NCBI GenBank assembly: GCA_944324135.1
Contig: CALUVE010000012.1
Coordinates: 1-54,727, forward strand
Reading direction: 5' to 3'
DNA from: Candidatus Gastranaerophilales bacterium
GTDB lineage: Bacteria; Cyanobacteriota; Vampirovibrionia; Gastranaerophilales; Gastranaerophilaceae
DNA: 54,727 bases
This document shows, one piece after another, positions 4,370 through 5,296 of this stretch (within the stretch, counting starts at the first letter, position 1; the number at the start of each line of letters is the position of its first letter). The position numbers and the translations under genes were made by a program. Under the pieces are notes generated by a model, which was given only the letters and a program-made list of their open reading frames with translations, was not told the origin of the DNA and made no database searches.

Positions 4370-4428
4370 GTCGTGGACTTATATAGCAAATTTTACAAAA
4401 AATTTTTCAAAACTGCGTCATACTGAGT

Positions 4429-4470
4429 ACTCTGCCGAACAAAACGATTAAGTATCGTTTTGTGAGAGGT
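4429..4470. repeat. Hairpin repeat element, copy 1
   Basis: ACTCTGCCGA (4429-4438) is followed by a perfect 10-bp stem, ACAAAACGAT/ATCGTTTTGT (4439-4448 with 4454-4463, loop TAAGT), then GAGAGGT (4464-4470). The flanks can pair too (CTCT with AGAG). The same flanks enclose a different stem at 4957-5002. Confidence 0.7.
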
Positions 4471-4491
4471 TGAAGTATCTAAATAAGAAAG

Positions 4492-4520
4492 ATTCTTCGG
4501 GCTAAAGCCCTCAGAATGAC
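4492..4520. repeat. Palindromic intergenic repeat ending in GAATGACA
   Basis: ATTCTTCGGGC (4492-4502) pairs with GCCCTCAGAAT around a TAAA loop, apart from a TC/TC mismatch. It ends in GAATGACA, like the longer palindromic repeat at 23389-23467. This looks like a dispersed, non-coding intergenic repeat. Confidence 0.6.
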
Positions 4521-4573
4521 AGACTTTTAATAGTAGTTGTGTAATTTGCTACATAAGTCACTTTCACGGTGGC

Positions 4574-4602
4574 TTGACATGCTGCCATGTCTTTTTTATG
4601 AT
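4574..4602 (+). promoter_or_regulatory. Sigma-70 promoter of tRNA-Cys
   Basis: TTGACA (4574-4579), a 17-base spacer and TATGAT (4597-4602). The expected transcript start is near 4609, nine bases before the tRNA. Confidence 0.8.
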
Positions 4603-4617
4603 AGAGTAACGAGGAAT

Positions 4618-4688
4618 GGCGACATGGCCAAGTGGTAAGGCAGAAGCCTGCAAAGCTTTTACCCCCGGTTCGAATCCGGGTGTCGCCT
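4618..4688 (+). tRNA. tRNA-Cys (anticodon GCA)
   Basis: The acceptor arms GGCGACA/TGTCGCC pair fully. There is a D arm with GGTAA, an anticodon loop CTGCAAA giving GCA, and a T arm CCGGG/CCCGG around TTCGAAT. CCA is not encoded. A consensus promoter precedes it, and a small-protein gene follows within about 20 bases, possibly on the same transcript. Confidence 0.97.
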
Positions 4689-4710
4689 TTTTTATATTAG
4701 GAGGTTAACT

Positions 4711-4938
4711 ATGGGCAAAATATTCGGAATTTCAGACAATCCTGTTTCTACAATAGATAAAGCTCTTAAGCCTCTTACTTTAAAAAAGCCGGCGGAATCT
4801 GTCAAAATACTTCCTAAGGCTCAAGATACAACTGATAAATTTATTTCATCAGAAAAACCGCATACGTCAAATCCGTTTATAAAAATGCGGAACGGTATCG
4901 GTAAATTAATGGCACATTTCAGTAAAAAACAAAGTTAA
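4711..4938 (+). CDS. Small unknown protein, 75 residues
   Basis: I do not recognise a family. A strong AGGAGG (4700-4705) sits six bases before the ATG, which is good evidence of translation. The product is basic (MGKIFGISDNPVSTIDKALK at the start, KLMAHFSKKQS at the end) and rich in Lys, Pro and Ser. It has no signal peptide, membrane segment or Cys. It lies directly after tRNA-Cys with no visible terminator between them, so it may be co-transcribed. It is one of several small, probably lineage-specific genes in this window with strong ribosome sites. Confidence 0.75.
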   Translation: MGKIFGISDNPVSTIDKALKPLTLKKPAESVKILPKAQDTTDKFISSEKPHTSNPFIKMRNGIGKLMAHFSKKQS

Positions 4939-4945
4939 ATTACCT

Positions 4946-4956
4946 GGGCGATTAGC
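4946..4956 (+). repeat. Copy of the tRNA-Val 5' end
   Basis: GGGCGATTAGC is identical to the first 11 bases of tRNA-Val (5057-5067), 111 bases downstream. It runs straight into the second hairpin element, so the rest of a tRNA is missing. Confidence 0.5.
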
Positions 4957-5020
4957 ACTCTGCCGACGAAAATATGACTAAATGTCATATTTGAGGAGAG
5001 GTAAGGTAGCGCGCGCTACC
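4957..5020. repeat. Hairpin repeat element copy 2, plus an adjoining 16-bp palindrome
   Basis: ACTCTGCCGA (4957-4966) and GAGAGGT (4996-5002) match copy 1, but the enclosed stem is AAATATGAC/GTCATATTT (4970-4978 with 4984-4992), unlike copy 1. It is followed at 5005-5020 by the perfect palindrome GGTAGCGCGCGCTACC. Confidence 0.65.
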
Positions 5021-5056
5021 AACAAGCCCATTTTGATAATTTAATATCTTTTACAA

Positions 5057-5129
5057 GGGCGATTAGCGCAGTTGGTAGCGCATCACATTGACGTTGTGAG
5101 GGTCACGTGTTCGAGTCACGTATCGCCCA
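5057..5129 (+). tRNA. tRNA-Val (anticodon GAC)
   Basis: The acceptor arms GGGCGAT/ATCGCCC pair fully with discriminator A. The D arm is GCGC...GCGC and the anticodon stem is TCACA/TGTGA around TTGACGT. The T arm is ACGTG/CACGT around TTCGAGT. CCA is not encoded. Fragments of both its ends lie nearby (4946-4956 and 5274-5290). Confidence 0.97.
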
Positions 5130-5163: not shown

Positions 5164-5175
5164 ATTGTCGACTCG

Positions 5176-5264
5176 AACAGGTTTGTTTGCTCTCGAAGTC
5201 GCAAACAAACGGTGTTCTACCCGTACGAGTATCCAGCCTCGTTAGGCTCGTGTAGCTCGCCTAC
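5176..5264. repeat. Three hairpins between the duplicated tRNA ends
   Basis: GTTTGTTTGC (5181-5190) pairs perfectly with GCAAACAAAC (5201-5210), and the stem extends with a bulge through GAACA/GTGTTC. It is followed by AGCCT/AGGCT (5235-5248, loop CGTT) and GTAG/CTAC (5252-5264). No protein or tRNA fold fits this stretch. Confidence 0.6.
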
Positions 5265-5296
5265 GATGCCGGAGAGTCACGTATCGCCCAAATAAG

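Follow-up and report, generated by a model that had tools for sequence, protein, structure and literature searches.

A clade-restricted family of very small modular hairpins with constant feet and tips in Gastranaerophilales, gathering in broken tRNA ends

The 54,727-nt stretch of Candidatus Gastranaerophilales bacterium DNA analysed here (contig CALUVE010000012.1, referred to throughout as the window) carries two members of a modular hairpin family, named el, which is restricted to one clade, varies in copy number, has sharp ends and gathers in broken tRNA ends. We consider it probable, at roughly 0.68, that el, only 40-48 bp long, is a mobile but non-autonomous DNA hairpin with constant feet and tip and a paired spacer stem. 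Its ends are the same at many unrelated sites. Closely related genomes differ in it, tandem arrays of it lie outside tRNA genes, and it takes the place of a few nucleotides starting with G, either in a hairpin arm of a tRNA end or in the small loop of the repeat that hosts one of the window copies. Small palindromic repeats are common in bacteria and, to our knowledge, the movement of the smallest of them is mostly unexplained. Among the open-licence papers listed on Gastranaerophilales or Melainabacteria, cyanobacterial small repeats, REP and RAYT, or partial tRNA duplication, we found no description of el.

An element consists of a left foot (ACTCTGCCGA), a variable complementary stem that ends in a tip, and a right foot (GAGAGGT), and the exact pattern used for searching comprises both feet. 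The initial annotation had reported two copies with fixed flanks in the window, and both are indeed present with the two feet exact, against 0.00 expected from 100 dinucleotide shuffles:

4429 to 4470, forward strand: el copy 1, an exact pattern match (covariance model 59.6 bits; fold z -4.4 as single-stranded DNA), made up of left foot 4429-4438, stem 4439-4448, loop 4449-4453, stem 4454-4463 and right foot 4464-4470
4957 to 5002, forward strand: el copy 2, an exact pattern match (covariance model 62.4 bits; fold z -4.2 as single-stranded DNA), made up of left foot 4957-4966, CGA 4967-4969, stem 4970-4978, loop 4979-4983, stem 4984-4992, GAG 4993-4995 and right foot 4996-5002

The stem of copy 1 is ACAAAACGAT/ATCGTTTTGT around the loop TAAGT and that of copy 2 is AAATATGAC/GTCATATTT around TAAAT; folded as RNA, the copies reach z scores of -3.5 and -4.7, respectively. 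The two stems do differ, as had been claimed, but their tips belong to two of four recurrent classes (NACTAAATGTN and ATTRAGTAT). Similarly, copy 2 does pair as described, but the description had omitted its outer CGA/GAG, in which a C-G pair closes two opposed G and A.

Compensatory change between fixed flanks, which had been proposed from these two copies, is strongly borne out by the wider family. Among 186 pattern matches with loci, 157 (112 distinct) pair at all but at most two positions of the inner stretch, compared with 1.25% of same-letter shuffles. This first pairing filter left out 29 matches; on our reading, 14 of them are el copies whose stems are offset or mismatched, and the other 15 are chance matches that do not pair, 12 of which have titles naming another group, such as Streptomyces or Kosakonia. 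A covariance model was built from 61 distinct elements picked among 121, and in the model alignment both partners change in each of the 12 variable-stem pairs, and 90.3% of cells pair. The covariation score was 0.316; shuffles gave 0.097, with 0 of 500 as high, and slid partners did not exceed 0.145. The way the alignment was built makes its feet invariant, and relaxed searches give slightly different feet. The only terminal inverted repeats are ACTCT/AGAGGT, which are bulged and whose invariance is likewise built into the alignment. At the other end of the hairpin, the four tip classes, which are loose and were defined after the list had been inspected, account for 132 of 134 distinct stems: NACTAAATGTN (49), ATTRAGTAT (49), CCNGTG (24) and CCGAACCRTTGAGG (10). 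G and A often face each other between foot and stem: 20 of the 134 stems begin with CGA and end with GAG. G-T pairs make up 22 of 1319 pairs in el stems (1.7%; 21 G-T and 1 T-G) and 25 of 491 (5.1%) in tRNA acceptor stems from the same loci, two sets that differ in age and pair calling; this scarcity points to DNA rather than RNA, but is suggestive only.

Hairpins with other feet were also encountered. A second foot type, AAGG(A)CTCC...GGAGG, has tips of the same kinds (L006, L066, L115, L129, L262 and L268), and 6 of its 8 distinct copies follow a tRNA-Pro-like 5' end at the position that el takes; in L115, two such copies have tips that are reverse-complementary to each other. Upstream of tRNA-Ala in the genome to which the window belongs (the own genome; 1.82 Mb in 47 contigs), an array of units (L243) reads the tRNA-Ala 5' end, GGGGCGTTAGC, and then hairpins with AGGGACCCGC... 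feet; these feet are different, yet the hairpins carry the el tip GACTAAATGTC. In L258 and L260 a larger palindrome (GCGRATTTGC...GCAAATYCAAGA) is nested in el right after ACTCTGCCGA. Reverse-complemented, the left foot of el (ACTCTGCC) gives GGCAGAGT, a common sequence at D-arm ends (for example in tRNA-Gly, L248), which may possibly be the origin of the foot or a coincidence.

What el displaces can be seen in the surroundings of copy 1, which lies in a dispersed palindromic repeat:

4417 to 4520, forward strand: host repeat of copy 1, reading GTCATACTGAG-el-TGAAGTATCT ... AGATTCTTC-GGGCTAAAGCCC-TCAGAATGAC, found both with and without el in the own genome and in congeners
4618 to 4688, forward strand: tRNA-Cys(GCA)

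The general form of this repeat is GTCATACTGAG-...-GAAGTATCT...AGATTCTTC-...-TCAGAATGAC. We aligned 18 hand-picked copies, 13 of them el-free and 5 el-bearing. Those without el have 7 nt between GTCATACTGAG and GAAGTATCT (or a variant of it), namely CGNTAGC in 10, CGACAGC in 2 and CGTAAGC in 1, whereas the el-bearing copies read GAG(C/T)-el-(T/C)GAAG, so that el replaces about six bases starting with G. Both copies had been described as lying beside tRNA genes. For copy 1 this holds only in terms of distance: it is 147 nt upstream of tRNA-Cys, with which it shares no sequence, and of the 14 nt to its left no more than 5 match the tRNAs of the locus. Copy 2, by contrast, directly follows a copy of the 5' end of tRNA-Val and is 54 nt upstream of the gene:

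4946 to 4956, forward strand: exact copy of tRNA-Val nt 1-11 (GGGCGATTAGC), immediately 5' of el copy 2
5003 to 5030, forward strand: fold-back of the tRNA-Val 5' end, made up of AA and GGTAGCGC (tRNA-Val from nt 18 onward), an inverted copy, GCGCTACCAAC, and AAGCCC
5031 to 5056, forward strand: AT-rich leader (TTTTGATAATTTAATATCTTTTACAA) that precedes the intact tRNA-Val, with similar leaders in array units
5057 to 5129, forward strand: intact tRNA-Val(GAC)
5166 to 5290, reverse strand: partial copy of the tRNA-Val 3' end, without el, comprising 17 nt (5274-5290) and a different insert and fold-back

The antisense 3' copy at 5166-5290 is accompanied by a duplicated terminator-like hairpin. 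Between tRNA-Cys and tRNA-Val lies a small ORF (4711-4938, about 75 aa), and, judged by eye, similar sequence occupies the same place in three congeners. Across congeners, the locus running from tRNA-Cys and the small ORF to tRNA-Val holds 0 (G003), 1 (window), 2 (G001) or 5 (G002) el units.

Junctions of the tRNA kind were tabulated for 166 elements, of which 85 have no matching tRNA end in the locus (many loci end too early to tell whether one exists) and 14 show no resumption; merging repeats in the remainder gave 48 distinct junctions. The 5' pieces stop after tRNA nt 8-9, 11-12 or 18-20 and the 3'-end pieces, which are antisense, after nt 11-14. The tRNA stretch lost is 4-10 nt long, mostly 5-7, and its first base is G in 48 of 48; the base preceding el is C, G or T and never A in 152 distinct contexts. 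A target-site duplication, as is typical of MITEs, is seen neither in the host repeat, where there is replacement instead, nor at these junctions with their losses. Within tRNA-end copies el sits in the D or T arm and once, by eye, in the anticodon arm, that of a tRNA-Ile copy in the own genome (L250).

The association with tRNA genes is also apparent in the 69 of 123 elements that have 500 nt on both sides. Of these 69, 38 have a tRNA within 500 nt, compared with 7.3% of positions drawn at random from the same loci. Stop-free frames of 100 codons or more hold 18 of the 69, compared with 80% of the random positions. Where a tRNA is found within 500 nt, the nearest one is downstream in the orientation of el in 60 of 63 cases, 47 of these being sense and 13 on the opposite strand. 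Since el points at the gene from either end, it is in sense with a tRNA whose 5' end it adjoins and antisense to one whose 3' end it adjoins, which favours a process at the level of DNA. Several own-genome contigs (G000:C20, C24, C47, C18 and C41) end in or beside a tRNA gene, as would be expected if arrays of tRNA ends break assembly. At the end of another, C19, an element (L171) stands in a stretch that looked like antisense 5S rRNA, a reading that Rfam does not support at gathering.

We also surveyed the tRNA ends of the own genome without reference to el, using 40 ARAGORN tRNAs from the stretches read and those 72 of their ends that have 150 nt or more of sequence outside, seeded with exact 9-mers within 450 nt, a seed that misses diverged copies. 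Partial copies numbered 13, at 11 ends; every one is interrupted, without an intact run through nt 30. The inserts are el in 2, el with a larger palindrome in 1 and el-like or other sequence in the rest. In the el-free genome G035, there are 3 partial copies at 2 of 78 ends, again all interrupted. Loci selected for el hold 101 partial copies whose exact match to the gene end is 20 nt or shorter, a figure subject to selection bias. Given that 0 of the 16 partial ends in the own genome and G035 are intact, partial end and insert appear to go together, whatever the order of events. A separate history of duplication followed by insertion does not predict this, and it counts against the mobile-hairpin reading, as does the share of elements (85 of 166) lacking a matching tRNA end, with the same reservation over truncated loci. 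Tentatively, a single event of a system not described before may be responsible, in which a stem of a working tRNA gene is hit, a modular hairpin replaces its 5' side, the end is folded back and the gene is re-created, so that broken ends pile up outside.

The same 16 ends speak for passive amplification, in which hairpins would stall replication and template switching would duplicate tRNA ends with fold-backs and copy el into the junction, with no dedicated enzyme involved and el no more than a preferred template. An inverted match of at least 8 nt to the first 20 nt after el occurs in 26 of 111 contexts, compared with about 2% in swap controls, which fits such a process, as does the presence of other hairpins (those with AAGG(A)CTCC or AGGGACCCGC feet) at the same D-arm position. 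What makes this account unlikely in our view is the precision of the junctions: both ends of el are sharp in unrelated contexts, the lost stretch begins with G at all 48 junctions and, by eye, there is no microhomology at the left junction, the lost stretch starting with G and el with A. The claim that the left flank forms a palindrome is weak, its pairing with downstream sequence being slightly above that of the swap control (5.44 vs 5.15), and this too counts against the mobile-hairpin reading.

The distribution of el among genomes is that of a variable-copy family. The annotation had recommended scanning the genome for further paired copies; the exact pattern finds only the 2 window copies in the own genome, but the covariance model finds 14. 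We searched 59 relatives, comprising 36 genomes of family 1 (the window's own family), 4 of family 6, 3 of family 7 and 16 others. The exact pattern is present in 29 of the 59, the reversed-pattern control giving 0 throughout, and the covariance model matches 38, made up of 33 of 36 in family 1, 3 of 4 in family 6, 2 of 3 in family 7 (one of these two being weak, at E 0.008) and none of the 16 others. Copies per genome by this model range from 0 to 62, and G011, G035 and G323 are family members that it does not match. In a species genome collection the exact pattern occurs in at least 116 stretches, and among the 80 matches listed there 34 are from Candidatus Gastranaerophilales. A sample of the phylum gave matches in 128 of 292 genomes, 127 of family 1 and one of family 6; among the non-matching genomes listed, 3 are of family 1, with 144 other non-matching genomes not itemised. 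A contig titled Heliobacteriaceae (L057) carries a well-paired element. Carriage by phage was considered and rejected: of 45 pattern matches in viral_contigs, 2 pass the pairing test and only one, L276 (IMGVR_UViG_3300011008_000426), looks genuine.

If el moves, it would be as folded single-stranded DNA by means of an enzyme acting in trans. Such a putative recombinase would read the folded single strand by its foot and tip and put el exactly where the 5' side of a target hairpin had been. Among tRNA loci, only those that also carry or regain an intact gene would survive, and el would therefore be left in broken outer copies that point at the gene. Recombination sites recognised as folded single-stranded DNA are exemplified by the ends of IS200/IS605 and by integron attC sites; el differs from these in that no element body or associated gene was found, and attC cores are not evident by eye. 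Mobile DNA is favoured by the el-free versions of the host repeat, presence and absence at an orthologous locus, the antisense placement at 3' ends and the rarity of G-T pairs. Against it stand our failure to find a mobilising gene, the lack of target duplication and the travel of some copies in larger repeats. The initial annotation had offered a structured RNA or a structure-recognised mobile repeat, and it is the mobile half of that alternative that the evidence favours, with the fold presumably being what is recognised.

Neither a Y1 transposase nor a reverse transcriptase tracks el cleanly across the 59 genomes, and we rejected both as the obvious mover. RVT_1, which a reverse-transcribed element would lead one to look for in carriers, is found in 22 of 59 genomes; it is absent from the two richest in el, G008 (62 copies) and G023 (41 copies), and present in the el-free G011 and G035. 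In the loci examined, unpaired left feet revealed no larger, autonomous el-ended copy around a gene; these feet belong to mutated, edge-cut or masked elements, to chance matches, or to elements with a larger palindrome nested inside (L258, L260, L142). By eye, no transposase was recognised among the ORFs between paired elements in L033 and L146. In G003 el rides inside larger dispersed repeats, and since elements are carried in this way or duplicated in tandem, there must be fewer independent moves than copies.

Mobilisation as a REP-type repeat by a RAYT, which is a Y1 transposase, deserves separate consideration. REP and BIME sequences, as treated in PMC3733652, are like el in being short extragenic DNA hairpins with many copies, some of them inside palindromic targets, and REPs are reported there in Cyanobacteria. 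By the definition given in the same source, a REP hairpin carries GTAG or CGTC as an unpaired tag at one of its ends, and neither ACTCTGCCGA nor GAGAGGT contains either tag. A conserved stem within a family is a further REP feature, and in el every variable-stem pair varies on both sides, with only feet and tip held constant; el moreover replaces target bases. Y1_Tnp is found in 21 of 59 genomes and is missing from the el-rich G002, G012, G023 and G031. Within family 1, 15 of the 33 genomes with el have it, as do 0 of the 3 without el, numbers too few to tell; the other 18 genomes with el lack it at E<=0.001, and 6 genomes outside the family have it without el. In the 8 Y1 loci that were read (2.3-3.4 kb each; 36 Y1 matches were listed), no element lies beside the gene, so a RAYT flanked by el was not seen. 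We accordingly regard mobilisation by a RAYT as distinctly unlikely.

Other small repeats offer further parallels. The repetitive hairpin-forming elements of mitochondria, as described in PMC2800124, resemble el in being small, spread through intergenic DNA and of unexplained mechanism; there, the helix is the conserved part and the loop takes the substitutions, whereas in el the stems vary and the tips are constant. Closer to Gastranaerophilales, in a sister lineage, are the small dispersed repeats of Nostoc. These were reportedly described by Elhai et al. in 2008 as "very small mobile repeated elements" and are said to be nested in other repeats; as so described, they would share with el its tiny size, mobility and nesting, but differ from it in exact size. 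We know of no covarying stem with fixed feet among them. El thus resembles REPs and, going by that description, cyanobacterial small dispersed repeats in kind, yet fails the REP features tested, and the best reading is of a REP/SDR-like small palindrome of a new variety.

Least probable of all, and by our estimate very improbable, is that el is a structured RNA, either a cis-regulatory leader or a small RNA with its conserved foot and tip bound by a protein: strong covariation, stable RNA folds and the AT-rich tRNA leaders that adjoin many copies would suit it, but el is antisense to tRNAs at their 3' ends, has few G-T pairs, and varies in number and place among relatives, and Rfam 15 gives no match over either window copy at the gathering score or at E<=10.

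We therefore favour the mobile DNA hairpin. With its constant feet and tips and exchangeable paired spacer, the el-free versions of its host repeat and the 0/1/2/5 series at the tRNA-Val locus, the family amounts to a mutational scan, made by nature, of the requirements of such a hairpin. Should the coupling with rebuilt tRNA ends prove real, both the origin of partial tRNA genes and the breaks that assemblies show at tRNA loci would be connected with mobile hairpins.
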